Below, in pieces: positions 3,547-56,699 of a stretch of DNA of 64,000 bases. The DNA lies in NCBI GenBank assembly GCA_003024785.1, contig PUQB01000046.1:496001-560000 (forward strand). Reading direction: 5' to 3'. The first letter of the stretch is position 1, and each line of letters opens with the position of its first letter. Made by a program: the position numbers and the translations under genes. The notes under the pieces were generated by a model, which was not told the origin of the DNA, did not search any database, and saw only the letters and a program-made list of their open reading frames with translations. The DNA comes from Selaginella tamariscina (taxonomy: Eukaryota; Streptophyta; Lycopodiopsida; Selaginellales; Selaginellaceae).

Positions 3547-4447
3547 TCAAACCTTCTGAACCCAGACTTTGGAGGAAACTCCTTGTTTAGGTTTTGCTTC
3601 CTCCCCTTTGTACAAGTCTTCTAACGACATGCCATAAGCAACCTTTTGAGCTGCCTCTTGACATTCCCGATAGCTTGTTGGCTTGTACCTTAAGATTTCT
3701 CTTCGCGTTTTCTCATTCAAGCTAGCCATGAAGCAACTTCGAGCTTCATCATCGCTCATATTTGGCACCAATCGCCGTACACTTTCGAATCGATAAACGT
3801 GGTCCATTGGACTTCCCCGAACTCCCTGTTGACAAAGTGCCAGGTCAGCACGCAATCGCAAACCGAGATCATCCGGCATATACTGCTTTTTGATCTCCTT
3901 TTTCATGTGCTTCCAGCTGTTTCGGTATCCACGTTCACCTTCAACAATTCGCCACCAAGTCTTAGCTTCTTCTTTAAGAAACTGCTTGGCACATGCAACC
4001 TTTTCTGTCTTTCTCACGGAAGCAGCCTCGAAATAGCTTTCCATATCATACAACCAGTCATCCAAAACCTTGTAATCCTTTGAACCCATGAAATTCGAAG
4101 GCTTTACCGGTTTGAATTTACTGGGACCTCCACCACTACTTCCGTCGAAGAATCTGATTCAGAGGAACCTGACTCTGAGTCATGCTTCTTCTTCTTTTTC
4201 CGTGTGTCTGGTTGCGGAACATCTGGCACTGCGTATTCGTGGAATCCGAACGGCAACATTATCGATTCGGTCGTTCAACCCCAAACATCCCCTCGAAGTT
4301 CGTTTAGGGCATCCATCATTATTTCTCGCCAACCAGGTCGTTGCCTAACCTAGGGGGTCGACCTGGATCAGCCTCATCCATCTCCTCATTTTGAGCCTCT
4401 GCGACAGCCCTCTCTGCCTCAGGCTCTGGTTGCTTTCTCTTGCTCAT
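3547..4447 (-). pseudogene. Gag of element A (frame broken)
   Basis: The capsid-forming polyprotein starts near 4447 (MSKRKQPEPE) in one frame and continues from 4089 to 3547 in another. The second part has the retrotransposon Gag signature: KEEAKTWWR, a MPDDLGLRLRADL segment and the CFMASLNEKTRREILRY stretch typical of plant Gypsy Gag. The frame change near 4090-4320 is either a real break or a consensus error. The zinc knuckle follows in the next segment. Confidence 0.8.
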
Positions 4448-15523: not shown

Positions 15524-16115
15524 TGTCATGACCCGATACAGGATACATGATACATGATACGGGTTGCAGGATATTCCTATAAAATATTCCTACAGGATTC
15601 CGGATACAGGATACGGTTGCAGGATATTCCTACAGGATATGCCACAGGATATGCCTAGAGGATAAGGGACATGTGGACTCATCTTAGCCTCTGCATGCAT
15701 GCAGTCACTTTGCATGCATGCAACCACTTTTAGCACTCATGCCTAGATTAGCTCTTGGAGTTGTGAGCATAAAAGCTCCGACCTAATTGTTGTACAATCA
15801 GTTACTATCAACACCAGTCTTACTACGATCAATCTTGTCTTGTCTTGTTCTTGTCTTGCTTCCTTGTTCTCTCCTGTCCTGCTCCTTCTTGCCCGGATTG
15901 TCCTGTTCCTGTCTTGTTCCTGGATCCTGTCCTGCCTTCCTGTCTTGCTCCCGGATCCTATCCTATCCTGTGCTCCTGATCCTGTCTTGCTCCTGGATCC
16001 TATCTGCCTGTCTTGCTCCAGTTCCTAGTTCCTGTCTGCTCTCGGTCCTGTTCCTGAGTCAAGCCTTCTGTTCTTGGAATCCTGCTTCTTCTGGTTCCTG
16101 GATCGTGGCTTGACA
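15524..16115 (+). repeat. Upstream LTR of element C
   Basis: The 592-bp LTR begins TGTCATGACCCGATACAGG and ends GTGGCTTGACA. Its first part carries repeated ACAGGATATTCC-type units. A TATA-like CATAAAAG lies at 15768-15775 and is followed by a pyrimidine-rich stretch of TCCTGTCTTGC-like repeats. Confidence 0.9.
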
Positions 16116-16211
16116 GTTTGATAGTAACTACTTTCATAGCTCTCCGTTTTCCAGCTACTTTTTTTTCCTTGATTCTTTTCCTTCGTTTTCCTCCTTTTTC
16201 TTTCATAGATC

Positions 16212-17110
16212 ATGGCTGATTTTGAGCACTTTCAACGCGAGCACCAAATGTTGCTTCATGAGCTGGCCACTTTGCGCCAAGTGGTCACCGATCTGCAAGG
16301 TTCCACCAATGCGGCACATGCAGCTGCTGATGCATCCTCCAAGGCTGCTGCGCAGGCTCTCTCTCAGGCATCGGTGGTTCCCTCTTCATCGAACTTTTCC
16401 GGAGCCGAAGATAGCATGCCAGAAAGTTCAGTGGCAATCGTGCCGATTTCCAAGGTTTCCTGAATCAGATCCGGCTCTTGATCCGCATGCAACACACCGC
16501 TACTCGACTGATGCACAAAAGGTTGGCCTTTTGGCATCCTTACTAAGTGGATCTCCACGGGCTTGGGTTGCCCCCTTGCTGGAGCGTGACGACCCATTGA
16601 TGGAAGACTTTGAAGGTTTCGTGGCTGCCTTTGAAGCCTGCTTTGGAGATCCTGATAAGTACCGTTCGCATGCACGAAGTTACGGAAGCTCACTCAAGGA
16701 TCCCGACCAGCTTTCTATGCATCCGAATTTCAGCAACTTTGCACGAACATTCCATGGGACGAGACTGCATTGATCGAACACTTTCCTTTTGGGATGACGT
16801 GAAGGACCTTCTCCTTACGTTACCGGATGCCCAAACATTAGCGGAGATCATGCAACAAGCTGTTCGTTGCGACAACCGTTTGTTCGAGCGTTCAGGAAAG
16901 ATCCCGTCAGCAGTTCCTGCAAACCAATCCTGCAGCTGTGGTACATGTTCCTGCACCACCTTCTGGAGTAGTTCCTATGGAGGTTGAGAAATCCAAGCGT
17001 GGCTCTCTTTCGCTGCTGAGAAGCAACGTCGCGCAGTGAGAACCTATGCTTGTATTGTGGTGAAGCAGGACACAAGGTGGCAGATGTCCTATTAAAGCCA
17101 GGAAGTTCAA
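16212..17110 (+). pseudogene. Gag of element C (frame broken)
   Basis: It starts [19 protein letters not shown] at 16212, the same start as in element D. The capsid part ([20 protein letters not shown], then [17 protein letters not shown]) is in a different frame from the start, and further slips follow. A zinc knuckle remnant (YCGEAGHKVAD) is at about 17050. The capsid resembles the Sushi/PEG10-like Gag type in layout. Confidence 0.82.
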
Positions 17111-17229
17111 GACGCGTGAAGTTGAAGCTGAAGTTCAGTCGGAAAACTTCAATGTCCACTTCGTCTAGGAGCCGCGAAGTTGGACGTAGGTGCAGGCTCC
17201 ATTGGTGCTGCTCATACCATTCCATCACT

Positions 17230-20200
17230 AAGTTTCCTGTACACATTCATCTTAATAATCGAGAGCTCAAGGAGTTTGCCTGTTAGACACTGGTGCAAAT
17301 GCATGCTTCATGGATGACACTTTTGCAACTCAACATGGCATTTCGGTGGTGAAGTTGAAGCGTGCAGTTCCTGTAGAGGTGGCCGATGGGCGTCTGATTG
17401 CTTCTGGCGCAGTTACCCATGCTACCGAACCTCTCCTGCAGTCATGGCACATTCAACTGTTCAATTTCCTTCAACTTGATCAAGACTCGGTCGACTCCCA
17501 TCATTTTGGGCATGCCATGGTTCGTTGTTGCAAATCCGCAGATCGACTGGAGGTCTAGGACGCTCACGTTTTCCTCTCCGCAGCTAGGATCAATCCTGTA
17601 CCTTCCTGTGTGCAGGATACATCCTTAGTATCTGAGGCAGTACAAGCTACAGGATTGACCGTGCCTGTTCCTGTACCAGTGTTGAAGACTCCTCCTCGAC
17701 AGGATTCACCTCATGTCAGTTCCTCAGCACATCCGCAGGCTCTCTCCACTCCTGTTTTGCTGTACAGGGTTCTTCCAATCCTGTATCAGTGTCGAAGGTT
17801 CCTCCTCAACAGGATCCACCTCCTGTTGTTCGTCAGCACATTCGCAGGCTTTCCCACTCCTGCGCAACCACGGACTCCTGTACAGGATTCTTCCAATCCT
17901 GTACACTCGTCAACATCCACACAGGTTTTTCCAATCCTGCCTCTTTCTGTTACTTGCTTCTGTTCCACCCCCCAAGATCCTTCCTCTTTTTCAGTCACAG
18001 CTCCCTCCTTCTCCTCTCCGAGTTCTTACCACTACCATGCATGAACTGCCACTGATCCTGCTCCTTTCCACCTTTTTGCCTTTCAAGTAACTCCTACGTC
18101 CTCTTCTACCTTTCCTGTATCGACTCTCCTGTTTTTCAATCTCCTTCTCCTACTCCCTCCTTCTCCTCCTTCTTCCCTACCATCCAAGTATCACGACTTT
18201 AAGGACGTTTTTGACAAGCACAAGGCTGCAGTTCTTCCTGTTCACAGGTCCTACGACTGTCCTATTGATCTTGCGGAAGGAAAGACTCCACCGTTCGGAC
18301 CGATTTATGCATTGTCACCCACAGAGTTGGAGGTTCTTCGTCAGTACATCGAGGACAACTTGGCATCCGGCTTCATTCGTCACTCAAAGTCCCCTGCAGG
18401 AGCACCTATCTTCTTTGTCAAGAAGAAGGATGGGAGTTTACGTTTGGTTGTGGACTACAGGGGTTTGAATCAAGTCACCATTCGGAATCGGTACCCGTTG
18501 CCATTGATCCCGGAACTTCTCGATCGGCTGCGAGGAGCAAAGGTGTTCACGAAGATCGACTTACGAGGGGCCTACAACCTTGTACGGATTCGTAGGCGAT
18601 GAGTGGAAGACTGCCTTTCGTACAAGGTATGGACACTTCGAGTACACGGTGATGCCTTTCGGCCTTACCAATGCCCCAGCCGTGTTCCAACACATGGTGA
18701 ACGACATCTTTCGTGACTTCTTGGACCAGTTTGTGGTGATCTACCTCGACGACATTTTGATTTTCTCCAAGGACCAGGCGGCACATGACAAGCATGTACG
18801 ATTAGTTCTAGCGGCTTCGCGAGCATGGCCTGTATGCGAAGTTGGAGAAGTGTTTTTTCGATAGGGATTCTGTGGAGTTCTTGGGCTACATCGTCTCTCC
18901 TGCTGGCGTTTCCATGGACATGCACAAGGTGAAGACCATCGTGGAGTGGGAGAGGCCCAAGTCTGTACGAGATGTACAATGTTTCCTTGGCTTTGCAAAC
19001 TTCTACAGGCGGTTCATACAGGACTTCTCCAAGCGTGTACTTCCACTCACGGAACTCACCAAGCGCACAGGGTTTTCTCTTGGTCCGACAAGGCGGAACA
19101 TGCATTCACAACACTCAAGGACGCCTTCACGACAGCTCCGATTTTAGCACATCCTGACCCTTCTCATCCTTTCTTCGTTGAAGCAGAGGATTTTGCAGTA
19201 GGATCCGTCCTATCACAAGTTGGAGAGACAAGTTGCTTCATCCTGTAGCTTTTCACTCTCGTAAGTTCCTTTCGGCGGAGATCAATTACGAGATTCATGA
19301 CAAGGAACTCAAGGCCATTGTGGATTCGTTGAGGAGTGGCGGCATTTCCTGGAAGGTGCTGCATCCTGTACAAGTTCTTACGGATCACAAGAACCTGGAG
19401 TATTTTCAAACGGCTCGAGTTCTCAGTCGGCGACAGGCTAGGTGGGCGGAGTTCCTATCACGTTTTGATTTCGTCATCGTCTACAGGCCCGGTTTTCGGA
19501 ATGGCAAGGCGGACGCATTGTCTAGGCGCTCTTACCTTGCACCAAGCCCGGGCGATCCTGCATTTGACTGTCAAAGGCAAGTGTTGTTGGGTCCTGATCG
19601 TTTCCGGCTTGCGGCACTACAGGTTCATCAGGCTCCAGCAAATTCAACACTCCTACAGGACATCCGTTCGCAGTTGGCTACAGACGACTTGGCAAAGAAT
19701 GTGTTCTCACACATTCATCCTGACGTTGCAAGTTCCTCTTCCTCCAGTTCCCGTCCAGACTACAAGTTTTCCATACAGGATGGACTCCTGTACCGGGAAG
19801 GTCTCCTGTACGTTCCTGTTGGTATTTCCAGGACTCGTGTGGTACAGGATTGTCATGATACCCCGGCTACAGGACATTTTGGTGTGGCCAAGACAGTGGA
19901 GTTGGTGACTCGCAACTATTGGTGGCCTGGGTTGCGAGGTTTTGTGGAAAGGTTTGTACGGAGTTGTGACACTTGTAACAGGTCGAAGATGCCTCATCAT
20001 GCACCCTCTGGTCTTCTTCGTCCTCTTCCTGTTCCTTCTGCTCCTTGGAGATCCATTTCTATGGATTTCCTCACAGATCTTCCTCCTTCTCGTGGATTCG
20101 ATGCAGTTCTTGTGGTGGTTGACCGTTTCAAAGCAGGCTCATTTCCTACCCTGCAACAAGACAGCTACAGGTCAGACAACTGGAGTTGGTGATCCGTGAG

Positions 20201-21120
20201 TGTTCCGACATCATGGTCTTCCTGAGAGCATTTTTCCGATCGAGGTCCACAATTCATGTCCAAGTTTTGGCGAGAGCTTCTTCGGAGTCTACAGGTTAAA
20301 GCGGATCTTTCTTCAGGATATCACCCGCAAACTGATGGGCAGTCCGAACGCACAATTCAGACCTTGGAACAGTATCTTCGTTGCTTCATCAGTTACCAGC
20401 AGGACAACTGGTTGGACCTTCTTCCAATGGCGGAGTTTGCCTACAACAACTCCGTTCACGCATCTACAGGACAGACACCTTTCTTTGCTCTTACAGGCCA
20501 CCATCCACGTTTTGACTTTGCTCCTCCCGCTTCTCCTTCTTCCGCTCCTGCAGTACAGGATCGTCTCCAGCATCTTCGCAGGTACAGGATGATCCCAGGT
20601 TCATCTTCAGCAGGCACAGGAACGATACAAGCATCATGCTGATGCTCACCGTCAGCCGGCACCTGCATACAAGATTGGTGATCTCGTGTGGCTTCTTCGT
20701 CGACACATTCGCACCAACAGGCCTTCTTCTAAGTTGGATTTTCAACGATTGGGCCCTTACAGGATGTGGCGGAGGTAAATCCTGTAGCTTTCCGACTCGA
20801 GTTACCATCCACGGTGAAACTTCATCCTGTGTTTCACACCTCTTGTTGGAGCCGTATCATCCTTCTTCTCTTCCGGTCGCTTCTTCTCCTCCCCTCCTGT
20901 GGTCATTGACACTGAACCTGAGTACGAAGTTGCAGCCATCCTTGATTCTCGTCTTCATCGCGCCAACTCCAATACTTGGTGGATTGGAAAGGTTATTTGC
21001 CTACTGATCGCACTTGGGAACCTGCATCCAACTTACTCCATGCTTCTTCCAAGTTGCTGCCTTCCATCGGCATTATCCTGCTAAACCAGGTCCCAAGACT
21101 CGTGGAACTCGTCTTTAGGG
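17230..21120 (+). pseudogene. Pol of element C (protease to chromodomain, frame broken)
   Basis: Protease: [18 protein letters not shown] at about 17290-17340. RT: 18312-18864, with [22 protein letters not shown] and the YLDDILIF box near 18740; the frame breaks near 18600. RNase H and tether: about 19140-19530, ending in [10 protein letters not shown]. Integrase: zinc domain ([18 protein letters not shown]) and core ([24 protein letters not shown]) at 19850-20160, then [17 protein letters not shown] near 20330. Chromodomain remnant: [15 protein letters not shown] at about 20910. At least six frame changes and several stops make it inactive as sequenced. Confidence 0.88.
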
Positions 21121-40820: not shown

Positions 40821-41171
40821 TCAAAACCTTGCCCAACACCTTGTGCACTCGGCCTGACAATCCCCTTTACAATCCACATTGTAACCCAACACCTGTGGCT
40901 TCCTACCCAGAAGACTCTTCAGCGTCTTCCCACTAATCCCCCACGTCTCGTCCAAAACACGAACATTATTCTGTATCTCCTTATCGAGCTTGCATCCCAA
41001 TACCTCGGGGAATTTTCTCAAAATACCCGATAAATCCCCGTCGGAAATCCCCAAACTCGCTAGATAATCCAGAATGCATGTAATATTCTCTACATCTGGA
41101 GGAGTTTTCTCTCTGTTTCTTTCCCCAGTATGGGATTTCATGTCCAAAAGACTTACCCAATACAACATCAA
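40821..41171 (-). pseudogene. mTERF family protein, C-terminal fragment
   Basis: The frame encodes the last part of a plant organellar mTERF protein, whose repeats bind nucleic acid in plastids or mitochondria. It shows PPDVENITCILDYLASLGIS, LSGILRKFPEVLGCKL, LLGRKPQVLGYNVDC and the ending CTRCWARF, then a stop. Full-length proteins usually have about 300 or more residues; only about 90 homologous residues are here. No further mTERF repeats are visible between 41172 and the transposon end at 41665, nor beyond its far end at 56690. It is a gene fragment, or the terminal exon of a gene whose rest is not in reach. Confidence 0.72.
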
Positions 41172-41655
41172 AATTAAATGGAAATTTACAATTTTCTTAC
41201 CAGAGTGGCTGGATGTTTAAAATATGCGCCTCCATTCCAGTAATTTGGCTAATCCTAATGAATTTAGCCATTGAGAGTCGTTTCAAATACTAATTAGGTA
41301 CATTCTTGGTATCTAATATTATTCTTAGGATATCCTTTCAATGGATGGTAACGCATACATGTAGAATAAAAAAAAGGTTACCATTTAAAGTTTTATAATT
41401 ACCTAATAATAATTTGCTATTAACCTTATACAAACAAATTACTCATATCCTATTTTAATATCTAGCATTATTTATTTTATGCAATATATAAAATTCCAAT
41501 CTTCATTTGCATGTTTGTTAGTATATTTAATAACCATGTAGTAATAATTGTTTTTAAAATTATTTATTTTTTTACTTTTTACTTTGTTAAATTAACATAT
41601 TCATAATTAACTTCCACAGTTATTAAACAGTCTTCATTTGCACGCGTAGTAATCT
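41172..41655. other. AT-rich stretch between mTERF fragment and transposon
   Basis: Nothing recognisable. Composition is strongly AT-rich, with no frame extending the mTERF fragment. Two donor-like sequences lie at its left edge (minus strand GGTAAG and GGGTAAGT), close to where the mTERF homology fades. Confidence 0.5.
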
Positions 41656-41664
41656 TTAGTAAAT
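41656..41664. other. Left target-site duplication of the large transposon
   Basis: TTAGTAAAT, matched by TTAGTAATA at 56691-56699. Seven bases agree and the last two are swapped. A 9-bp duplication is the usual length for Mutator-like elements. Confidence 0.65.
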
Positions 41665-41860
41665 GGGGCACGGCGAAATTCGAGCGCAGGTCAACGAGCT
41701 TGACCAAGATTTGCGAATATTCTTGAATATTCGTTGTTCCGTACGATTTCCGTCTAGATATCCTCGAATATTCTGTACGGAAATTTTTCGTACTGCCAAG
41801 TGTACACACAATTGGACCTTCCAAAATTTTCAAGAATATTCTAGTGCGGCGGCCGCATAC
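41665..41860 (+). repeat. Left terminal inverted repeat with four GAATATTC motifs
   Basis: GAATATTC occurs at 41715-41722, 41725-41732, 41766-41773 and 41834-41841. The first two are two bases apart and form GAA-TA-TTC-TT-GAA-TA-TTC. The inner 21 bp (41832-41852) match the right end (56577-56597 reversed) at all but one base. A NotI-like GCGGCCGC follows at 41850-41857. Confidence 0.8.
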
Positions 41861-41960
41861 AAAATATGGTAGTATATTTTTGTTGTATTTAAAGAAATAT
41901 ATGTTAAATTACTTAAAAATATGCTAAGCATAAAATTACCATTAAAATTTATATTGAAAA

Positions 41961-44900
41961 TTATAAGTTTGAAATAACAAATATAAAACCGAAGCTGTTT
42001 GAAAACAAACCAAACACACTAAATAGATGGTGGAGGATGGAGGTTCCTTGGTAGCATATCAATAAAGAACTTAGTTCACGGGGTGCAAGTGTACGACGTT
42101 GCAAATGCTTGACAACTCGAGGATCAGCTCCCAGTACACGCTTGTAAACAAAATACATATGTTTGCAAGGCACCCACTGACGACCATTGCAGAACTCCGA
42201 GCATGAACAAGATGGTGCGCTGCAAATGACAACCCAAGCAGATGTATGGTCGTTGTCACATACTCTGAAGCGAATGCATGTTGGAGGATCAACCACGTCA
42301 ACTTCTGCGACATATGCTCCCAACGTCAAACATGCTTCAAAACTTACCTGTTGTTTCTTAGACATCCCTAAAGGTGTTCTTGTTGCACGACCACTTGCAG
42401 GAACAGGAGGTCCACGAAATTGTGCAGGGGTGTTGAAAATCCAGTGACTCCAACAGGAACTGAAGGAACATGAGGTGTTGAAAAACCTGGCACTCCTGCA
42501 TGAGCTGAAGGAAGCCCAGCTAGCATAAAACCTGATCTTGCCAGATCATTGATCTCCACTGCTATCAGCTTCGTGCCCACTTGAACTTTCCAAACCGAGG
42601 TAGAAGCTGGCGGAGAAACAATAGTTGGTCTTGGATGTCTGCTGCAAAGCATGTTTGTTGGACAAAAATACATCATTTGTGAGCGAAAGCATTCTTCACC
42701 AGTTTCTTTGTCATTGTATCTGATCCTTCCAAAAAAACAAGGAGCAGCCACTCGATTACCACTAGGACTGATCTTTTTGTCACAAGCACTCCACTGACCT
42801 CCTGAAGAGGGAAAGCCTGCCAGACATTTCACAGAACTTCTTTCACCACATCTTCTAATCGCCCATTGTCCAGGTGTAACATCTTGTTCTTCAACCAGAA
42901 CATATTCTTCATGTTCTTCTGCAAGTTGAAAATCCAATCGTCGCTTCCGTCTACACTGTGTTGGAATAACCTGTTCACTATAGAAGATGTCCGGTCGGTG
43001 GGATCGTTCAGCCTCTGACCCCATATTTCTTTGCACAGTGCGATGTTCAACATTCGTGGCAGCCACAAAAGCAGTATCCTGCATGCTTGATGGAGCAACA
43101 TCTTCAACTAAGTCGATGATAACCTTTGCTGTAGGTGTTGTTGAGTTAGCATTTGACATTCTTCTCTCGAACCTTGCTGAGAGCTCCTCTGAAGTCGGCC
43201 CGGAACCACTATACCTTCCATCTCTAAAAGCCTTCACAAGAGCACATTGTCGCACTGATTCAGTCAGGTCGTGGATTGTAGCTTGGTACAATGAAATGTA
43301 TTTTGAATCTCTAGCCCTCCTCCATCTTCCGTGAACAGACTCCGACTGGTTTGTCATGGGCACAACCCTTGCAGCATTCTCCGGCATGCTTTCAAGAACA
43401 ACATTTGAAATATGATTCTTCTGTCTTTCCCACCATGAAAACCACGTCTGCATAACTCCAACATCCTTCACATTTTCATTCCAAAAGCGGAAAAGATTAT
43501 TTTCAATTTCTTCACGATCAGTTGTTGATGTGGCTGTTGGCCATGATCTCAAAAGTTGAAGATGTTGTTGTTGATGTTCAAGAGGGACCCACTTCCTTGT
43601 CACACGTTGTATGGCTTGTTCATAGTGAAAGATACAGCTCCGTTCACGTCCAGGAATTTCTTGGCCATTAAAGAACACATTCCTGATTGCTTGCCAGATC
43701 GCTCCTGCTTCATCGGACATAAACCCAGCGAACTGCACATTGTAGATTCCCTTCTCGGAACAGACATCCAACATAGCACGAAAAAACTTCTCCACAGCTC
43801 CAGCCGTTTGTCTCTTCATGTCACCATAAGCAATGGTGGATAATCGGCGCACACTATAAAATAATCAAAGAGTTAAGCAAACAACAAAAAGATAACATCT
43901 TACTTTGGGTCGTAAACATGCAATGCCAGAGTGATCCACTTATCAACAACACGGTGTGTGTGATCAAGTAGAACCCAACTCTTCTGCAAAGGGCCAAGAG
44001 GAGGTTGGCACATCCTTACATAATCGATTCCAGAACCTGGCCCTGAAACCGTCATCTTAAAAACTAATGCCTGGTCGTCTGAACCACGGAAATTCATCCC
44101 AGGATAGTGAATCACGTGGATGAATGGGATAGACAACCTTCGTTTCAGCTCCAATAATCCATCAATATTCTCTGGCATTTCAGCAGCAGTTCTCTTTGCG
44201 GACGCTACCCATTGACGAACTCTGCATCAAAGGTATTATCAAAGAATGCTCAGCACAAAGTAAAACTCTAATTGTACCTTCGATTGTTTGATAATGGCTG
44301 CAAATGATCCATGAGCTTATCCCAACTTCCAGGCTCAGAATTATCTAATAGGAAACCAAAGATAGCATCTTTACATGCTGCCATTTCGATGACTCTTGGA
44401 CTAGCTCTGGGAGTTCTTTCTGTTGCATTCTGGACCGCCATATGCATTTCTTCTTTGTTCGATGCAGAAACACCATCACCCACTGGATGTGAATGTTTTC
44501 CCTGGTGGATAAACAATCTAGTCTTGGTTATGTCGTCTGGGAAAACGCAAAACGCCACAGCATGACAAACTTCAAGGCACAATGGATTTTCTTTACAGAA
44601 AAAACATGTCAATCCTTTTGCCAGTTTGTCGATTGAAGGTGGGGAAACAATACATCCTTTCCATTTAGTGCAGTTCGGAAATCCTGCCTTAGAAGCAGGG
44701 CAGTCCGGGTTGATACAGCAAAGGCTCCCAACACATTTGCTCCTGGACACCCTCGCTTGAAAATTCCAGTTGCTGGTCGTTCCTGCTGTCCAGGTATGTC
44801 CATCCTCTTTCCGATTCATTCCTTTGTATTTGTATTCGGAAGGAGGGAGCTCAAAAATGACATCCCCATCATACGCAACAGGCAATTCATTTGTATGAAT

Positions 44901-45257
44901 GATCGTGGAACCCTCGATAAGAATTCTTCCCTTTTTGCAGGTATTAGAAGTGAAAAGGTCCTTCAACGTTGAGTATTCAGAGTCAGAAGCAACGACAAGC
45001 TTAAACAATGGTCCTTCATCCGGTAACAAAACATATCCTGGATTATCCTTCCCTCCAGCATCTTGGTCCTCGTTTATTTCGATCTCTAAAGCAGATTGCC
45101 CATGAAGAAGTTTAAAAAGACGAACACTTTGCCAATCAAAAATGCCAAAGAACGTTCTAATCTGATTAGTAAGAATGATTCCAACACCATCTATCACAGG
45201 AACATCGTGATCCAAATTGCCGTAAACAATCCTGGCCATTTTGCAAGCAGTTACCAC
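41961..45257 (-). CDS. WRKY-GCM1 / MULE / SWIM transposase, three exons
   Basis: A transposase of about 1060 residues. Exon 1 (45257-44278) holds a WRKY-GCM1-type zinc finger: CVGSLCCINPDC, two more Cys pairs, then DDITKTRLFIHQGKHSHP with the two His. Exon 2 (44221-43904) and exon 3 (43853-41961) hold the MULE catalytic region: WVLLDHTHRV (first Asp), FAGFMSDEAGAIWQAIR (second Asp), CIFHYEQAIQRV (C-x-x-H) and NQSESVHGRWRR. The C-terminal SWIM finger is CSCSEFCNGRQWVPCKHMYF. Introns are short, GT-AG and in phase. One base is missing in a G/C run at 42427-42430 just before the SWIM part, otherwise the frame is open, so the gene looks recent. An internal start MARIVYGNLD at 45239 is also possible. 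It should bind the terminal repeats and cut DNA. Confidence 0.88.
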
Positions 45258-45877
45258 AAACGTGACAGAAAAACAACAGCATTACTTAATCATCTTTTGG
45301 TAAATATCGGATATTACCATTTCAAAAATTCACAATCATGACTCAACGTGGGCGAATATTTAATTCAAGGAAACGTATAGATCTTAGATGCTAATATAGT
45401 ATAGCACTTCACGTAGAGATAGAGCAATCTTTATTGTCTTTTAAATAAATGTGTGTCTAATCTACATTCATCTGACATATTTATTTATGACTTGTTTATA
45501 TTCTGTTAATTTATTTATTATAATTATATAGTTATTTGATCCAGTATTTTATCTAATGTAGACATTATAAATACATATTTTTACACGAATATTTATTTAA
45601 TTATATAATAATATGTTTTTTAACATACAAATTTTTACTTAAATATGTGTTTGTATTTGTATCCTTTTATATAGTACGTTATTTATCGCAAGTATTGTAT
45701 ATACTGTTGTATGGTTTGATTTATTTAGGTCAAAGGGTTAAGTGTTAGATTTTAGGGTAAAGGTTTAGGGCTGCCCATTCTTCTTCTCCATTCTCCATTG
45801 TTGAGAGGGCACTTTTGTTCTTTTTTTTGCGGCTTGTTATTTGCGCGACAAGAGGCTAGTGTGAGCGTCACGGCGAC
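45258..45877. promoter_or_regulatory. Divergent spacer between transposase and ParB-methyltransferase genes
   Basis: A 620-bp AT-rich spacer between two start codons pointing away from each other, so it probably holds both promoters. Near the plus-strand gene there are two telo-box-like blocks (TTTAGGGTAAAGGTTTAGGG, 45751-45770) followed by a GCCCA motif (45773-45777) and a pyrimidine-rich TTCTTCTTCTCC stretch. Telo-box plus GCCCA is a common pair in promoters of plant genes expressed in dividing cells. Activity is inferred. Confidence 0.5.
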
Positions 45878-48800
45878 ATGGCTACAGGTAAAATCTTATA
45901 TATGTGTATAGTAATTTCTGTGCATGTATGTGCAAATTCAGTAGGATTTCTCTCTATTCACAAACGCACGCGCGTGTGCACACACACACACACCTCCGAC
46001 GGCATGAGTTATTGCCGATTTGGCAAACACACTCACACACACACACACATTTCCTGCCAAATTGGGCAGAATTCTGCCGCCTGGATGGTGCGGGCCGCAC
46101 CATCTGGGCGGCAGATTCCTGCCCAATTCGGCAGAATCCTGCCCCCAATGGTGCGGCGCCGCACCATCCAGGCGGCAGATTTCCTGCCCAATTGGGCAGG
46201 AAAATCCGTGTGTGTGTGTGTGTTGTGCGCACACATAAATAACATTTTACACACGTACCACTATGATTATACAACATTAGACTTGTATACATGTGTGTGT
46301 ATATATAAATATATATATTTAAATACATACTTAAAAGACTTTTATATATATATATATATATATTATATATTTATGTATGTATAAGTATATGAATTAAGAC
46401 TTGTATATATGAGATGATGCTTTTCGTCTGTATATACATGTGAAGAGATATGAATATACCCATATTCTCTCACACAGACACATCACAAAACACAAACAAC
46501 ATTGCACACACACACACACAAAGCAACATTACACACATACACAAGGAACATTATATAGTGAGCACACACACAAACAACATTACACATGTATAAATATGTG
46601 TGTGTGTGTGTGTCTATATATATTGATAGGTATACATATATAGTAAATGTGTGTCCATAAATTAAAAACTCACACACACACACTCTTATCAGTTGTTGTA
46701 ATTGCAGAATGAGGCAAAGGCAAGTAAGAGACTGTGAGATAAATACAAGACTTTGACACTTCAGGAACATATCGTCCAAGAAGCTCTTGCAGATATGGCT
46801 CCAAAACCTCGTGGCAAGAAAGGAGGCCGAGGCGCCAAGCAACAATTGCAACACGAAGAGATGATGCCGACGAACAATGAACATGTATAGTTCGCAAGTC
46901 ATTAATGAACATGCTGTGGTGAGTGAATGGATGCCTAGAAATAGGGAGATCGCAGAAGCTCTGCAGAACACGGTAATGCAGAAGAAGTACCGGACATTGA
47001 TCTTGGTAGTAAAATGTTCAATAAGAAGAGGAAACTGGATGCTTCTGAGGATGTTGCCGAATCATATGCAATTCCGGAGCGGCTGACACTTGAGGCTCCA
47101 TCCAAGCTTCTTCGAGATCTTGTTATTCGGTATGACACGGATATTGACACATCGCTACAAGGACGAGACCACTACGTTCCAGTTGAGCTTGGTGAGCCCC
47201 GCGTATCCTGATCACAGGTTGCTCCCACACCAACGTTTGAGGAATGTCACTAAGGACGGCGTGAAAGACCTTGTTGGATGGATTAGAGCTGAAGGATATT
47301 TACCAGGAGACGCCAGTGTTCACTTTATCTTTCGGACCACAGCTGAGTGCAGACGAACGCCGAAGTTGGAATGAGTCAGAAGCACAGGTCAATAGAGATT
47401 TTGAAGCAGATTTGCATAAGCCAGCATTTTCTGCTGCGTGGTATCGATTTCTGAAAGATGCAAAGTTTCTGGTGTGGGATGGGAATCATCGTCGGGTTGC
47501 TTTGAACACTTTGCTTGCTGAAGAGCCAGGTTTGAAATGGACTTTGCGTGTACGTGCAACACTCATAGCATCCACAGTGCAAGAGGAGAAGAGACTAATC
47601 GCTGCTTGCAATCGGTTGAATGAGTAAGTGACTTGTTTGTTTCATTATTTAAATACTAAATAAATGTTGTTTTGTTTTGCAGAGCAACTGCTCGTGTGGT
47701 TCCTACAACAATCATTCACACCTTGCAGTTCTTACGGAATTGTTGTGTGAAGTCTACAGATCTTTCTACTAATCATGTTCTTCGCGGATGCCGGAGGAAG
47801 ATAGAAAAGCTGTGGAAGTGTGGAGATCGAACAGAAAAGAAGACGTTTGGTACGAGTATCTAAAGACGACATTGGTGAAGATTTTTTGGGAGGTAATCTT
47901 TTCTTCTTCTTTTGATTGTTTTTTGATTTTCGGTTTCTTTTGCAGAATCAACTGAAGCGACAAATCGCTACAAAACTTGCGAACAGAAAACCAAACCAGA
48001 TAGAATCTCAGATCCTCTCCAGCGTTTACAAGACATTCACAGTTCGGATGAACAAATTCCTCACCATTGCTGATCCGGCGGTCGGCGAAGATTGGTTCAA
48101 GGAGCACAGATATCACTATCAAACCATCAACGAAGCAAATAACTCTGGAGAAGCTTCAAATGCTCGCGAAGTCCCAGCTTCCTTCCAACGTCTGTCACGA
48201 CCCGATACAGGATACAGGATACGACATACAGGATTCAGCCTACAGGATATGCGATACAGGATTTCGGCCCGCAGGATATTCCCACAGGATATGCCACAGG
48301 ATATTCCCACAGGATATTCTCACAGGATATTCCCGCAGGATATTCCCGCAGGATATTCCTACAGGATATTCCTATAGGATAAGGATGACCAATTTTGGCT
48401 AGTGACTAGATTAGGCTCATGACCAGATTAGCTTGGAGTTGTGAGCATAAAAGCTCCGACCTAATTGTTGTACAATCAGTTACAATCAACACCAGTCATT
48501 CTACGATTATTCTTGTTCTTGTCTTGTCTTACTCTTTGCCTCCTGCTCCTGTCTTGCTCCCGGATCCTGTCTTGTTCTTGGATCCGTCCTGTTCCTGTTC
48601 CTAGTTCCTGTCCTGCTCTCGGTCCTGTTCCTGAGTCAAGCCTTCCTGTTCTCGGAATCCTACTTGCTTCCTGGTTCCTGGATCGTGGCTTGACAGTTTG
48701 ATTGTAACTGCTTTCATAGCTCTTCGTTTCCCAGCTACCTTTTTTTTTCCTTGATTCTTTTCCTTCGTTTTTCTCCTTTCTTTCTTTCATACGATCATGG

Positions 48801-51800
48801 CTGATTTTGAGCACTTTCAACGCGAGCACCAAATGTTGCTTCATGAGCTGGCCACTTTGCGCCAAGTGGTCACCGATCTACAAGGCTCCACCCATGCGGC
48901 ACATGCAGCTGCTGATGCATCCTCCAAGGCTGCTGCGCAGGCTCTCTCTCAGGCATCGGTGGTTCCTTCTTCATCGAACTTTTCTCCGGAGCCGAAGATC
49001 AGCATGCCAGAGAAGTTCAGTGGCAACCGTGCCGATTTCCAAGGTTTCCTGAATCAGATCCGGCTCTTGATCCGCATGCAACCACGCCGCTACTCGACGG
49101 ATGCACAAAAGGTTGGCCTTTTGGCATCCTTACTAAGTGGATCTCCACGAGCTTGGGTTGCTCCCTTGCTGGAGCGTGACGACCCATTGATGGAAGACTT
49201 TGAAGGTTTCGTGGCTGCCTTTGAAGCCTGCTTTGGAGATCCTGATAAGTACCGTTCTGCATGCACAAAGTTACGGAGGCTCACACAAGGATCCAGACCA
49301 GCTTCCGTTTATGCATCCGAATTCCAGCAATTGTGCACGAACATTCCATGGGACGAGACTGCATTGATCGAACATTTCCGTTTTGGGCTGAGGACGACGT
49401 GAAGGACCTTCTCCTTACGTTACCGGATGCCCAAACGTTAGCGGAGATCATGCAACAGGCCGTTCGCTGCGACAACCGTTTGTTCGAGCGCCGTCAGGAA
49501 AAATTCCGTCAGCAGTTCCTGCCAGCCAACCTGTAGCCGTAGCACATGTTCCTGCGACACCTTCTGGAGCAGTTCCTATGGAGGTTAACAATTCCAAGCG
49601 TGGCCCACTTTCAACTGCTGAGAAAACAACGTCGACGGGGTGAGAACCTATGCTTGTATTGTGGTGCAGCAGGACACAAGGTGGCGGAATGTCCTAATAA
49701 AGCCAGGAAGTTCAAGGCGCGTGAAGCCGAAGCTGAAGTTCAGCGGAAAACTTCAATGTCCACTTCGTCTAGGAGCCGCGAAGTTGGACGTAGGTGCAGG
49801 CTCCATTGGTGCTACTCATACCATTCCATCACTCAAGTTTCCTGTACACATTCGCCTCAATAATCGAGAGCTCAAGGAGTTTGCCCTGTTAGACACTGGT
49901 GCAAATGCATGTTTCATGGATGACACTTTTGCAGCTCAGCATGGCATTCCGGTGGTGAAGTTGAAGCATGCAATTCCTGTAGAGGTGGCCGATGGTCGTT
50001 TGATTGCTTCTGGCGCAGTTACCCACGCTACCACACCTCTCTCTTGCAATCATGGTGCATTCAACTGTTCGATTTCCTTCAACTGATCAAGACTCGGTCG
50101 ACTCCCATCATTTTTGGCATGCCATGGTTCGTTGTTGCAAATCCGCAGATCGACTGGAGGTCTAGGACGCTCACGTTTTCCTCTCCAACAGCCAGGATCA
50201 ACCTGTACCTTCCTGCGTGCAGGATACATCCTTGGTGTCTGAGGCAGTACAAGCTACAGGATTGACCGTGCCTGTTCCTGTACCAGTGTTGAAGACTCCT
50301 GCTCGACAGGATTCACCTCATGTCAGTTCCTCAGCACATCCGCAGGCTTCTCCACTCCTGTAAGTTTGCGGTGTCCTGTACAGGGTTCTTCCAATCCTGT
50401 ATCAGTGTCGAAGGTTCCTCCTCAACAGGATCCACCTCCTGTTGATCCATCAGCACATTCACAGGCTCTCCTCACTCCTGTGCATCCACGGACTTCTGTA
50501 CAGGATTCTTCCAATCCTGTACACTTGTCAACATCCACATCTGTTTCTTCCAATCCTGCTTCTTTCATTACTCTGTTTCTATTCCACCCCCCAAGATCCT
50601 TCCTCTTTTTCAATCACAGCTCCTCCTGCTCCTCTCCGAGTTCTTACCACTACCATGCATGAACTTACCACTGATCCTGCTCCTTTCCACCTTTTTGCCT
50701 TTCAAGTAACTCCTACGTCCTCTTCTACCTTTCCTGTGTCTGACTCTCCTGTTTTTCAATCTCCTTCACCTACTCCTTCTCCTTCTCCTCCTTCTTCTCT
50801 ACCATCCAAGTACCACGACTTTAAGGACGTTTTTGACAAGCACAAGGCTACAGTTCTTCCTGTTCACAGGTCCTACGACTGTCCTATTGATCTTGCAGAA
50901 GGAAAGACCCCACCGTTCGGACCGATTTACGCATTGTCACCCACAGAGTTGGAGGTTCTTCGCCAACATCGAGGACAACTTGGCATCCGGCTTCATTCGT
51001 CACTCAAAGTCCCCTGCAGGAGCGCCAATCTTCTTTGTCAAGAAGAAGGATGGGAGCTTACGTTTGGTTGTGGACTACAGGGGTTTGAATCAAGCTACCA
51101 TTCGGAATCGGTACCCGTTGCCATTGATCCCGGAACTTCTCGATCGGCTGCGAGGAGCAAAGGTGTTCACGAAGATCGACTTACGAGGGGCCTACAACCT
51201 TGTACGGATTCGTCCCGGCGATGAGTGGAAGACTGCCTTTCGTACAAGGTATGGACACTTCGAGTACACGGTGATGCCTTTCGGCCTTACCAATGCCCCA
51301 GCCGTGTTCCAACATATGGTGAACGACATCTTTCGTGACTTCTTGGACCAGTTTGTGGTGATCTACCTCGACGACATTTTGATTTTCTCCAAGGACCAGG
51401 CACACATGTACGGTTGGTTCTACAGCGGCTTCGTGAGCATGGCTTGTATGCGAAGTTGGAGAAGTGTTTTTTCGATAGGGATTCTGTGGAGTTCTTGGGC
51501 TACATCGTCTCTCCTGCTGGCGTTTCCATGGACATGCACAAGGTGAAGACCATCGTGGAGTGGGAGAGGCCCAAGTCTGTACGAGATGTACAATGTTTCC
51601 TTGGCTTTGCAAACTTCTACAGGCGATTCATACAGGACTTCTCCAAGCGTGTACTTCCACTCACGGAACTCACCAAGCGCACAGAGGTTTTCTCTTGGTC
51701 CGACAAGGCGGAACATGCATTCACAACACTCAAGGACACCTTCACGACAGCTCCGATTTTAGCACATCCTGATCCTTCTCGTCCTTTCTTCGTTGAAGCA

Positions 51801-54800
51801 GATGCCTCGGATTTTGCAGTAGGATCCGTCCTATCGCAAGTTGGAGAGGACAAGTTGCTTCATCCTGTAGCTTTTCACTCTCGTAAATTCCTGTCGGCGG
51901 AGATCAATTACGAGATTCATGACAAGGAACTCAAGGCCATTGTGGATTCGTTTGAGGAGTGGCGGCATTTCCTGGAAGGTGCTGCACATCCTGTACAAGT
52001 TCTTACGGATCACAAGAACCTGGAGTACTTTCAACGGCTCGAGTTCTCAGTCGGCGACAGGCTAGGTGGGCGGAGTTCCTATCACGTTTTGACTTCGTCA
52101 TCGTCTACAGGCCCGGTTTTCGGAATGGCAAGGCGGACGCATTGTCTAGGCGCTCCTACCTTGCACCAAGCCCGGGCGATCCTGCATTTGACTGTCAAAG
52201 GCAAGTGTTGTTGGGTCCTGATCGATTCCGGCTTGCGGCACTGCAGGTCATCAGGCTCCAGCAAATTCAACTCTCCTACAAGACGTCCGTTCGCAGTTGG
52301 CTACAGACGACTTGGCAAAGAATGTGTTCTCACACATTCATCCTGACGTTGCAAGTTCCTCTTCCTCCAGTTCCCGTCCAGACTACAACCTGTTCACCAT
52401 ACAGGATGGACTCCTGTACGGGAAGGTCTCCTGTACGTTCCTGTTGGTGTTTGCAGGACTCGTGTGGTACAGGATTGTCATGATACTCCGGCTACAGGAC
52501 ATTTTGGTGTGGCCAAGACAGTTGAGTTGGTGACTCGCAACTATTGGTGGCCTGGGTTGCGGGTTTTGTGGAAAGGTTTGTACGGAGTTGTGACACCTGC
52601 AACAGGTCGAAGATGCCTCGTCATGCACCTTCTGGTCTTCTTCGTCCTCTTCCTGTTCCTTCTACTCCTTGGAGATCCATTTCTATGGATTTCCTCACAG
52701 ATCTTCCTCCTTCTCGTGGATTCGATGCAGTTCTTGTGGTGGTTGACCGTTTCACCAAGCAGGCTCATTTCCTACCCTGCAACAAGACAGCTACAGGTCA
52801 GACAACTGCCGAATTGGTGATCCGTGAGGTGTTCCGACATCATGGTCTTCCTGAGAGCATTGTTTCCGATCGAGGTCCACAATTCATGTCCAAGTTTTGG
52901 CGAGAGCTTCTTCGGAGTCTACAGGTTAAAGCGGATCTTTCTTCAGGATATCACCCGCAAACTGATGGACAGTCAGAACGCACAATCCAGACCTTGGAGC
53001 AATATCTTCGTTGCTTCATCAGTTACCAACAGGATAATTGGTTGGACCTTCTTCCTATGGCGGAGTTTGCCTACAACAACTCCATTCACGCATCTACAGG
53101 CCAGACACCTTTCTTTGCTCTTACAGGCACCATCCACGTTTTGACTTTGCTCTTCCTGCTTCTCCTTCTTCCGCTCCTGCAGTACAGGATCGTCTTCAGC
53201 ATCTTCGGCAGGTACAGGATGATCTCCAGGTTCACCTTCAGCAGGCACAGGAACGGTACAAGCATCATGCTGATGCTCACCGTCAACCGCACCTGCATAC
53301 AAGATTGGTGATCTCGTGTGGCTTCTTCGTCGACACATTCGCACCAACAGGCCTTCTTCTAAGTTGGATTTTCAACGATTGGGCCCTTACAGATCGTGGC
53401 GGAGGTAAATCCTGTAGCTTTCCGACTCGAGTTACCACCTACGGTGAAACTTCATCCTGTGTTTCACACCTCCTTGTTGGAGCCGTATCATCCTTCTTCT
53501 CTTCCTGGTCGTGCTTCTTCTCCTCCCCCTCCTGTGGTCATTGCTGGTGAACCTGAGTACGAAGTTGCAGCCATCCTTGATTCTCGTCTTCATCGTCGTC
53601 AACTTCAATACTTGGTGGATTGGAAAGGTTATTTGCCTACCGATCGCACTTGGGAACCTGCATCCAACTTACTCCATGCTTCTTCCAAAGTTGCTGCTTT
53701 CCATCGGCGTTATCCTGCTAAACCAGGTCCCAAGACTCGTGGAACTCGTCCTTAGGGAGGAGGTGCTGTCACGACCCGATACAGGATACAGGATACGACA
53801 TACAGGATTCAGCCTACAGGATATGCGATACAGGATTTCGGCCCGCAGGATATTCCCAGGATATGCCACAGGATATTCCGCAGGATATTCTACAGGATAT
53901 TCCCGCAGGATATTCCTACAGGATATTCCTATAGGATAAGGATGACCAATTTTGGCTAGTGACTAGATTAGGCTCATGACCAGATTAGCTTGGAGTTGTG
54001 AGCATAAAAGCTCCGACCTAATTGTTGTACAATCAGTTACAATCAACACCAGTCATTCTACGATTATTCTTGTTCCTTGTTCTTGTCTTGTTCTTGTCTT
54101 ACTCTTTGCCTCCTGCTCCTGTCTTGCTCCCGGATCCTGTCTTGTTCTTGGATCCGTCCTGTTCCTGTTCCTAGTTCCTGTCCTGCTCTCGGTCCTGTTC
54201 CTGAGTCAAGCCTTCCTGTTCTCGGAATCCTACTTGCTTCCTGGTTCCTGGATCGTGGCTTGACAACGTCAAGGTTGATATCCTTGAGAAGCTTGTGCAC
54301 ATTCAAGAACGTGGCATTCTTGAGAAGCTGGTGAACATGACGGAGAAAGACAAGAAGGAAGGTGTCACCAGCTGGCCTGACAAGGACTTCATCAAGTTTT
54401 TGCACATCTTTACTTACTGGTTCCAGGTAATTTAATATTTTATATTTTTCATTTTTATTCGTTTTATCGTGCTAGGTCACGGAGGTAGCTAAAGAGCTTT
54501 TGGTCGAGCATGTAGAGGAGTTCATGGCATGGTATACGAAGATGCACAATGAAATTAAGTTGGATATGTACCAGAACATGCTTGAGAACAAGGAGTTCGG
54601 TGCGACAATTCCACCTTCTCGACTATTTGAGCTGGAAAAATCTGCAAAAAGAATGGCATTCAGGCAAGTTTTTTTTTTTGTTTTTTACAGATTTTTATTT
54701 TTTTTAAAGGTTTTTAAAAGGAAAAACGATGCACTCCCTGAAGATTTCAAAGAGTGGATGGATGTTACCAAGGATTCTAGCATGTGGAGCCGGTTGTTAC

Positions 54801-56182
54801 ATGATATCAGTGATTACGAAGTGGAACACTGTCTTTTCTGGCTGGATTTCCTTCCTGGTGACTATCTCGAATGGGAGATGGCCAGCTATAGATACACAAG
54901 GATGATCGGCGAGAGCTATTATGGAAGAACGACAGTGCTGCAAGGAAGCTCCATGTGAAGATGGATATCAGGTATGCTAGATCGGCGAGCAAGGTCAGCA
55001 AAGGATAGGCTTCTTCTTCAGCCCCATCCTTCATCTCGCTGGATTGGAAGAAGATGATATGTTGAGGATGGTGATGCTTGAGAAGGGAAATGGAAGTTGG
55101 GAAATCATTCATGCAGATTCAGAGAACCTTGCAGTCCAGTACTTCAAAGCCGGAAGGCCTTTTCCATCAGAATTGAAGGAGCTTGAGGATTGGATCGTGA
55201 GTCATAAGTCAAGTTGGACTATTCATGTGTTTGGTGCGAAGCCTCCACCAAAATGCATCCAGGAGTTGTTGATCTCGTTGTCATCGACCCGCCTACCGGA
55301 TGCGTTGCTGAGGCAGGTGGGATGGTGGATCAATACACGAAGTTCTCGGATGCTTTGCTGAAGAACTTGGTGAACCTTGCTTTCGGGATATTAGACAGAG
55401 CTGGCCATGTGGTAGTGTTTGTGCTACCGGATGATGTTTTAGCTTTGAAGAACACTGCAGAAACTTGCAAGCTAAAGTTTCTGCAGATGAGTTATGTGCA
55501 CACAACAAGTCGTGAGGATACCATTTCTCTAGAAAGGTAATTCTTCTTTTTGAGAATGTCATTTTTTAATGTTTGTTTTTCATGAAAGCATCATTGCCAT
55601 GTGTATTTTTGGTTCCCCACTCTAAGGTTGCCAAGAACAAGGAGATCTTGGACACTCGCTACACTCTTCTTTTTGATGAGCCAGAAGATTTCCAGCTCCC
55701 ATGGTATAATGTTGTTTGTTATTTCTCATTTCTAATATTGTAACTTTCAGGATTTCAATTGGCCCGAAATCTCCCAAGTTGTTTGCGATGCTAGTGGAGA
55801 AGCTCACAAAGCCTGGTGGAACTCTCATGGATCTAACAGTGAGAACCGGTGCTAGTATTCTTGCAGCTTTTCACACAGGGGACATGGTTATGGAATCGAC
55901 ATCAACAAGGATCTGGTTTTAGCAGCCAGAGATGTCTTCAGGAAGGTCATTCCAAGTGTTACAGCAGCTGAAGGTGGTGGGGATGATCAAGTTGTTTCCA
56001 TGATTACTCCTTTTGATGAGTGGAAGAGGGCCATGGAAACAGAAGCACAGGATTTGCCTTTGGTTAGCAACAACGATGGAGACCAGGATCCGCCTTCTCG
56101 GAACGACGAGGATGTTGTTACGGAGAAGTCCGTGGCACAACGACGAGTCAGCAGAAGAGAGATCATACGAGTCATTAAATAA
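45878..56182 (+). CDS. ParB-like domain + beta-class DNA N6/N4-methyltransferase, multi-exon, split by element D
   Basis: ATG at 45878 (short exon, donor at 45888); further exons near 46708-47623, 47683-47892, 47946-48192 joined to 54271-54426, 54476-54663, about 54710-54971, 54999-55536, 55627-55703 and 55751-56182. The N-terminal part is basic ([15 protein letters not shown]). The ParB-like domain spans about 47100-47620 ([30 protein letters not shown], then [20 protein letters not shown]). A long helical linker follows ([28 protein letters not shown]). The methyltransferase has motif [14 protein letters not shown] (about 55285) and, after it, motifs [29 protein letters not shown] and [10 protein letters not shown] (about 55770-55915): order IV-I, as in beta-class enzymes. 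Frame slips occur near 46728, 46975, 47200, 47330, 47780, 55260 and 55880. Element D interrupts an exon, so the gene is broken here. Target base and site are unknown. Confidence 0.78.
46025..46225. repeat. Nested palindrome with (AC)n/(GT)n arms in intron 1
   Basis: The core (46050-46204) starts TTTCCTGCC and ends GGGCAGGAAA. It is built from smaller palindromes: CTGCC...GGCAG, ATGGTGCGGGCCGCACCAT and ATGGTGCGGCGCCGCACCAT. The whole core is also an imperfect inverted repeat of itself. It is bordered by (AC)n on the left and (GT)n on the right, which extend the possible stem. No coding meaning; the frames across it are incidental. It may be a MITE-like insertion or a hairpin RNA source. Confidence 0.85.
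48193..48695 (+). repeat. Upstream LTR of element D
   Basis: 503 bp. The first 190 bp are dominated by tandem units of the form ACAGGATATTCC with variants (CCGCAGGATATT, ACAGGATATGCC). A conserved block GAGCATAAAAGCTCCGACC follows, then a stretch of TCCTG/TCTTG repeats. Confidence 0.93.
48446..48453 (+). promoter_or_regulatory. TATA-like box in the LTR of element D
   Basis: CATAAAAG within GTGAGCATAAAAGCTCCG, identical in all four LTRs of the C/D family (15768-15775 and 54003-54010 among them). Strong conservation in otherwise variable LTRs suggests the core promoter; the start site would lie roughly 30 bp downstream, near TTGTACAATCAG. Confidence 0.55.
48797..49745 (+). CDS. Gag of element D (one frame slip)
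   Basis: Starts [20 protein letters not shown] at 48797, 102 bp after the LTR. The capsid part reads [59 protein letters not shown] and [10 protein letters not shown]. The frame slips near 49390 and continues with [20 protein letters not shown]. The zinc knuckle is [15 protein letters not shown] at about 49653. The layout resembles the Sushi/PEG10-type Gag family and is unlike the Gag of elements A and B. Confidence 0.87.
49850..53755 (+). CDS. Pol of element D (protease to chromodomain, frame slips)
   Basis: Protease: [15 protein letters not shown] near 49880. A long proline- and serine-rich linker follows (50250-50800). RT: about 50980-51410, with [30 protein letters not shown] and YLDDILIF near 51363; connection with [17 protein letters not shown] near 51600. 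RNase [20 protein letters not shown] near 51795, [19 protein letters not shown]. Integrase: about 52470-53130 ([52 protein letters not shown]). Chromodomain: 53540-53700 ([33 protein letters not shown]), stop at 53753-53755. About five one-base slips break the frame. Confidence 0.88.
53767..54265 (+). repeat. Downstream LTR of element D
   Basis: 499 bp, almost the same as 48193-48695. Differences are mainly lost or gained short repeat units (fewer ACAGGATATTCC units, one extra TTCCTTGTTCTTG unit). Followed by target duplication ACGTC. Confidence 0.93.
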
Positions 56183-56263
56183 TGAGTGAGATTTGTTTTA
56201 TCATTTCTTTGGTTTAAACTTTAATATGTTTTCAGTATTGTTCTACCAAACTACGCTAATTAG

Positions 56264-56389
56264 ATGGCAAAGAAAATGATTGAAGAGTTCGAAGTTTACG
56301 ACAGACAGATTTTGGAGAAACGTTCACGACACCGTAACAATGCATTCATTAACGACGAGGCACTGGCTGGTGGAAACGAGTCTTCATGA
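56264..56389 (+). CDS. Possible last exon of the ParB-methyltransferase gene
   Basis: A 41-codon frame (MAKKMIEEFEVYDRQILEKR, then a hydrophilic tail ending GGNESS and TGA) follows an AATTAG acceptor-like site, 82 bp after the TAA at 56180-56182. The upstream exon has an alternative frame ending ERSYESLNN before a GTGAG donor-like site, so a final splice is possible. Phase could not be made to fit, and it may simply be a short incidental frame. Confidence 0.35.
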   Translation: MAKKMIEEFEVYDRQILEKRSRHRNNAFINDEALAGGNESS

Positions 56390-56559
56390 TTGAGTTATGT
56401 TTTTATTGTAATTTTTATTAGTTTGATGCGGTATTTATATAAAAATAAATATATATAAATATAAATATTAAAAAAATAAAACATAAATATAAATATAAAT
56501 ATATAAATATATATGTTAGATTAACCCCCAAATTTGTGAAACTTTGACACCATTACCGT

Positions 56560-56690
56560 GCCGCATGATTGCCCGCCCGCCGCACCAGAATATTCTTTAT
56601 ACGAAAATGAATATTCTGTACAGAATGGAATATTCCGGTATGACGAAATCCGTACGCTCAGCAAACTGCGCTCGAGGAAATGTCAAACCC
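56560..56690 (-). repeat. Right terminal inverted repeat with three GAATATTC motifs
   Basis: GAATATTC occurs at 56588-56595, 56609-56616 and 56628-56635. Read on the minus strand it begins GGGTTTGACATTTCC and shares TCGAGCGCAG and GAGC with the left end at the same distances from the border. It is about 70 bp shorter than the left repeat between the first motif and the inner GTGCGGCGG block. Confidence 0.8.
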
Positions 56691-56699
56691 TTAGTAATA
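56691..56699. other. Right target-site duplication of the large transposon
   Basis: TTAGTAATA directly follows the inverted repeat and matches the left TTAGTAAAT in seven of nine positions. Confidence 0.65.

Follow-up and report, generated by a model that had tools for sequence, protein, structure and literature searches.

An old, now defective two-gene Mutator-type element in a Selaginella tamariscina contig, with a putative ParB-like/methyltransferase gene opposite its transposase

The window analysed here is a stretch of 64,000 nucleotides from Selaginella tamariscina (contig PUQB01000046.1 of assembly GCA_003024785.1, positions 496,001 to 560,000), in which an earlier note, made from the sequence alone, had placed a Mutator-like transposon with its own ParB-DNA methyltransferase at positions 41665-56690. 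We conclude that an old, now defective two-gene Mutator-type element at this place is real: a transposase gene and a ParB-like/methyltransferase gene diverge from each other and are enclosed by one matching pair of ends. The element was a Mutator-like DNA transposon of about 8.9 kb before a 6.1-kb retrotransposon landed inside it, and its transposase and ParB-like/amino-methyltransferase genes run from a shared centre, each to about 300 bases from its end. When intact, the second protein may have bound the DNA of its own element and added N6-methyladenine (6mA) or N4-methylcytosine (4mC) there; such a mark could have helped the transposase to recognise the element, or helped the element to escape silencing. 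To the joint reading, that this is an old copy of a two-gene Mutator-like element whose intact protein once bound or marked its own element, we give a probability of roughly 0.65; the two-gene element, taken alone, is highly probable. Its features, by position in the window, are as follows.

41654-41664, no strand: putative left target-site duplication, TTAGTAAAT at 41656-41664 or CTTTAGTAA at 41654-41662; weak
41665-41885, plus strand: left terminal region, with the outer block TCGAGCGCAG(N6)GAGC at 41680-41699, four copies of GAATATTC at 41715, 41725, 41766 and 41834, and the block AGAATATTCTAGTGCGGCGG at 41833-41852
41961-45239, minus strand: Mutator-type transposase gene, open pieces 45239-44280, 44223-43903, 43852-42428 and 42422-41964
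45240-46794, no strand: intergenic stretch of the divergent pair, putatively with a promoter role, containing microsatellites and, at 46029-46223, a GC-rich fold-back repeat
46795-48192, plus strand: 5' part of the ParB-like/methyltransferase gene, with a putative ParB/DndB-like piece containing WDGNHRR in the open frame 47265-47627
48193-54265, plus strand: nested Ty3-type long terminal repeat (LTR) retrotransposon with a chromodomain, flanked by ACGTC at 48188-48192 and 54266-54270; not part of the original element
54271-56389, plus strand: 3' part of the ParB-like/methyltransferase gene, with a middle region, the DPPT open piece (55256-55537), the motif X/I piece (55752-55871) and, in another frame, the GHGYGIDI piece (55880-56179)
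56540-56690, minus strand: right terminal region, with the inverted counterparts of both blocks at 56656-56675 and 56577-56596 and three copies of GAATATTC at 56588, 56609 and 56628
56689-56699, no strand: putative right target-site duplication, TTAGTAATA at 56691-56699 or CCTTAGTAA at 56689-56697; weak

One pair of ends around two genes

The terminal inverted repeats are present as shared blocks and are imperfect, as had been described. With up to two mismatches allowed, the outer block occurs only twice in the 64 kb, in inverted orientation at 41680 (+) and 56675 (-), where 0.06 occurrences are expected; at both places it is free of mismatches and lies at offset 16 from its end. The inner block, AGAATATTCTNGTGCGGCGG, likewise occurs only twice and inverted, at 41833 (+) and 56596 (-), with up to three mismatches allowed and 0.02 expected. 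A local alignment of the two ends scored 57, compared with a best score of 50 among 500 shuffles.

The ends also share arrays of the palindrome GAATATTC, which has 10 copies in the window against 1.57 from shuffles. Four of these copies are at the left end and three at the right, that is, 7 of the 10 are within 372 terminal bases, and there is none elsewhere in the element. When one mismatch is allowed, the number of palindromes per kb is 18-20 in the ends, 2.6 in the nested retrotransposon and 0-2 over the remainder of the element. As a control, 2000 random region pairs were drawn, from which 647 were dropped for simple repeats; a palindromic 8-mer was common to the pair more than three times in none of the 1353 pairs kept.

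That both genes belong to one element, as the earlier note had it, is borne out by the single pair of matching ends. The window scan found no further copy of the end blocks between the two ends, and the sole partner of the left end in the window is the right end, which lies beyond the methyltransferase gene. In the simple reading the two genes stop at 41961 and 56389, each about 300 bases inside its end. The ParB-like and methyltransferase domains are found in one gene, opposite the transposase and inside the ends, with the ParB part weak and the gene broken. An element boundary between the two genes was considered and rejected, because no copy of an end block was found there. The fold-back repeat in this region has arms of 65 nt that are 77% complementary and an inner hairpin of 40 nt (88%); it may represent a small element nested there or a structure with a regulatory role.

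The encoded proteins and the damage to the second gene

The four open pieces of the transposase gene join to 1055 residues. Two short introns are clear. The cheaper models also have a single frame change upstream of the SWIM part; under a very high penalty on frame changes, a short intron replaces it. The NCBIfam family IS256 is matched by residues 448-611 (E 9.8e-7); the score, 28.1 bits, falls far short of the family's curated cut-off, which is 150 bits. By eye we recognised a DDE-like set (D407, D474 and E598), C500..H503, a CxC..CxH SWIM motif at 975-991 and a C/H finger; the roles that we presume for D407, D474, C500..H503, E598 and CxC..CxH are those of such motifs in Mutator-like elements (MULEs). 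Profile searches of both proteins for MULE, SWIM, ParB and N6_N4_Mtase had been proposed, and they returned IS256 and a weak DndB match, while the Pfam search of the proteins gave no match to MULE, SWIM or WRKY, nor to a methyltransferase. On sequence, the class of the predicted transposase is confirmed as Mutator/IS256-type; from the earlier designation as a WRKY-GCM1/MULE/SWIM transposase the type is retained, and the SWIM part and the WRKY-GCM1-type finger stand as CxC..CxH and C/H patterns seen by eye, without a profile match. Among the viral contigs, no match to the longest transposase exon and no exact match of an end block was found.

In the methyltransferase part, the DPPT piece comes first, motif X/I lies downstream and GYGIDINKD follows, so that the catalytic motif precedes motif X/I and motif I is C-terminal. 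This order, DPPT and then X/I, we take to be that of the beta-class amino-methyltransferases (N6_N4_Mtase). A tblastn search against 50,697 phage records yielded 24 matching records, each of them weak (E 3-7 among the matches listed). The 20 phage matches listed, from 15 distinct phages, all align within residues 143-199 of the query, its motif-I part; 19 of these 20 are annotated as methylase or methyltransferase, and the twentieth is a second record of a phage annotated as methylase in its other record. A profile built from 5 phage proteins gave the plant segment 23.7 bits, compared with 5.2 for the best of 2000 shuffles, a value which is somewhat flattering because a frame change lies within the joined segment and because the phages in the profile are hits of this very query. 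The phage matches and the phage profile moderately support the earlier assignment of this half to the beta class of amino-methyltransferases. The lone viral-contig match of a methyltransferase piece was judged a coincidence and discarded; it falls in another frame of a gene that, by eye, is C5-methyltransferase-like.

The ParB-like assignment comes from the open frame 47265-47627, which matches Pfam DndB around WDGNHRR with E 4.7e-4 and 19.8 bits, under the cut-off of 29.1 bits. We take the DndB family to be a relative of ParB. We regard the frame as a ParB-like domain with reserve; the earlier claim of such a domain keeps this weak match, which is below the cut-offs and without backing from phages, plasmids or the PDB.

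The gene in which these domains lie is interrupted by the retrotransposon, which has gag, reverse transcriptase (RT), RNase H, integrase and chromo domains. An alignment of its LTRs has 6 gaps and shows identity at 486 of the 487 positions aligned; since the LTRs are nearly identical, the insertion is probably young. The LTRs contain a tandem array of 12-13-base units built on CAGGATATTCC. When the flanks are joined without it, one frame stays open across the insertion site, with a 5-bp duplication, ACGTC. The retrotransposon thus sits in what reads as a coding exon of the methyltransferase gene.

The reading frame also changes over the ParB-like part, the middle part and the motif-I part, and motif I and the stretch after it lie in different frames. 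Four gene models, from the cheapest to the dearest penalty, have 12, 2, 1 and 0 frame changes, and the penalty decides how many of these changes count as lesions and how many as introns that were not recognised. In the models with 2, 1 and 0 changes the motif-I stretch is passed over as an intron, and the 12-change model shifts frame just after it; consequently, no model keeps a complete cofactor motif in one frame. The joined pieces amount to 997 residues. The catalytic motif of beta-class amino-methyltransferases follows the rule (D/S/N)PP(Y/F/W), which DPPT in this copy fails. Because of the retrotransposon insert, the DPPT motif and the out-of-frame motif I, this copy, as read, is unable to make the enzyme. 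The divergent gene described earlier is seen, but the account of it as a multi-exon gene lacked the insert and the frame changes; and the suggestion that the element uses the enzyme to mark its ends, guide the transposase or escape host silencing is not supported for this copy, because the gene is broken.

In the flanks of the element lie the C-terminal domain of a GH3 glycosidase, a piece of mTERF and a piece of Dabb; together with the short introns, these have a plant-like look to us. The mTERF-like piece (40821-41216, minus strand) is about 450 bases outside the left end, which brings the element close to host gene sequence. Two further retrotransposons were observed in the window: a second Ty3-type element at about 16114-21000, similar to the nested one and apparently more degraded, with gag, RT and integrase peptides in common by eye, and another Ty3-type retrotransposon at 8-4158 (minus strand), of a different lineage by eye.

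Weighing the readings

Several results weigh against the joint reading. As to the ends, the earlier note had the shared blocks at identical offsets, which holds for the outer block (16 on both sides) but not for the inner one, whose offsets are 169 and 95. The global end-to-end alignment of the ends exceeds 1000 of 1000 letter shuffles, yet it is matched by 10 of 1000 random window pairs; since the whole-end alignment is thus unexceptional among window pairs, we place the likeness, as judged from the letters, in the blocks and arrays and not along the whole ends. The near 9-bp duplication previously reported is seen with 7/9 identity (TTAGTAAAT and TTAGTAATA) at the boundary given, a value equalled by 52 of 20,000 random site pairs, and it rises to 8/9 when both boundaries are moved by 2 bases; with 6 bases of boundary freedom, however, 317 of 2000 random pairs reach 7/9, and the target-site duplication is suggestive only. 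The 64-kb window holds a single copy of the element, and three protein searches with the joined readings of both proteins, in which shared exact 5-residue words were required, found no relative among 7999, 3912 and 3058 candidates scored. As to the methyltransferase part, the reservation on the phage profile stated above counts here, as does the Pfam search, in which no methyltransferase family was matched; the methyltransferase matches elsewhere were an arsenite methyltransferase in NCBIfam (E 0.098) and a DNA methyltransferase in PHROG (E 0.13), nothing solid. Its matches in the PDB are mixed, the best being a cadherin (E 0.31) and a type I restriction M protein (E 0.33). Those among plasmids are mixed as well: one of the 8 records is annotated as a methyltransferase, 4 are from Sulfitobacter (two TRAP transporter proteins, one exported protein and one unannotated), and the best, over the motif-I part, is unannotated (E 0.08). 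No convincing relative was found in the viral contigs. For the ParB-like part, the DndB match is weaker in the joined readings (E 0.0053 in Pfam and 0.021 for the NCBIfam DndB), all under the cut-offs; nothing convincing appeared among phages, plasmids and the PDB, the viral contigs gave no match to the piece, and its AlphaFold single-sequence model (predicted local distance difference test, pLDDT, 41.8) was unusable.

The palindrome arrays bear directly on what the second protein did. The transposase, the ParB-like protein or both may bind to them, and being confined to the ends they are natural candidate sites for a mark. Transposases bind at element ends, and transposase binding would explain the arrays at least as well: they are located at the ends, and no exact copy of GAATATTC lies anywhere else in it. 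We give nearly an even chance to the explanation that the arrays are plain transposase-binding sites and that a live methyltransferase acted elsewhere or generally, against which the VANDAL elements show that MULE accessory proteins, too, can recognise short motifs packed densely in the non-coding DNA of their own element (PMC5735166). The narrower proposal, that the ParB-methyltransferase marked the end-confined GAATATTC and that the mark guided the transposase or shielded the element from silencing, seems to us rather unlikely. It is possible, although we doubt it, that the ParB-methyltransferase gene was passive cargo, caught as Pack-MULEs catch host genes, never used, and decayed. The methyltransferase gene is indeed broken while most of the transposase is still open, and several MULEs have acquired extra reading frames (PMC6446971); on the other hand, the tidy two-gene layout reaches both ends, and the same gene pair occurs in Sola1 and, by citation, in other algal transposons (PMC12477816), a recurrence that points to a repeated useful role.

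Two further explanations concern the structure itself. The imperfect ends, the inner blocks at 169 and 95 and the weak target-site duplication would suit a composite, in which the right end came from another, related element and the methyltransferase gene was a host gene or another mobile element caught between; this is quite improbable, as the window contains no other copy of an end block and, in the simple reading, the genes stop about equally far from both ends. Very improbable, in our judgement, is an intact but oddly spliced gene with more introns, from which the retrotransposon would be spliced out. A model with zero frame changes does exist if such changes are made very costly, but it skips the motif-I stretch that matches the phages, so that its product would still be without a cofactor motif, and the retrotransposon, with its 5-bp duplication, interrupts a stretch that stays open when the site is read without it. 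We keep to the reading of an old two-gene element whose intact protein would have bound or marked its own DNA.

Comparison with known systems

In the published literature searched, from which subscription papers mostly fell outside, no Mutator element and no plant element with this gene pair was found; the words 'methyltransferase' and 'ParB' are absent from the main text of a Mutator survey (PMC6446971) and from that of a 2026 review of plant gene capture (PMC13317346). The earlier remark that no described plant element with the pair was known holds within that literature, but the concept itself has been published for algal transposons.

That an accessory DNA-binding enzyme marked its own element is plausible by analogy with the VANDAL elements, which are likewise MULEs with an accessory protein; this protein, VANC, is to our knowledge not a ParB-methyltransferase. 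VANC binds dense short motifs in the non-coding DNA of its own element and lifts silencing; its motif, YAGTATTAY, differs from GAATATTC, and among the regions rich in this motif are introns and stretches upstream of genes (PMC5735166). Retrotransposons with captured DNA methyltransferases (DNMTs) in dinoflagellates and charophytes also carry a DNA methyltransferase on a transposon, but there the enzymes are C5-cytosine ones and the carriers are retrotransposons (PMC5890265). N4CMT of bdelloid rotifers is a bacterial-type N4/N6 enzyme in a eukaryote and is linked to transposon marking; it differs in that it was captured from bacteria and fused to a chromodomain, and in the available parts of the paper it is not described as transposon-borne (PMC8885841).

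If intact relatives of the present element exist, at least one further transposon superfamily, and apparently a plant, has acquired or retained the accessory gene. Self-marking by a transposon could then be tested directly, the candidate site being a short palindrome whose places are known. Reports of 6mA in plants have been questioned (PMC12695648). Should there be a plant Mutator family with its own sequence-directed 6mA or 4mC system, most of the plant-side diversity of such systems would be unrecognised.

The closest system known to us from these papers is in the brown alga Ectocarpus, where the Sola1 DNA transposon Sola1-1_Ec32 carries a ParB-like and N4/N6 methyltransferase gene on the strand opposite the transposase, an accessory gene proposed to bind and mark its own transposon (PMC12477816). 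The same paper attributes similar proteins, by citation only (Iyer 2011 and Petroll 2025), to green and red algal transposons, and notes that red algae have giant EnSpm elements that carry accessory genes. The idea of a transposon with a ParB-methyltransferase gene opposite its transposase is already in print for algae. The Ectocarpus protein has 1104 aa, compared with the 997 joined residues here, and its element differs in having a Sola1 transposase and a length of 21.5 kb (PMC12477816). Unlike Sola1-1_Ec32, the present element has a Mutator/IS256-type transposase, an apparent plant host, a broken gene and GAATATTC arrays at its ends; as far as the literature searches show, the Mutator-type element, the apparent plant host and the end-restricted palindrome arrays are what is new.

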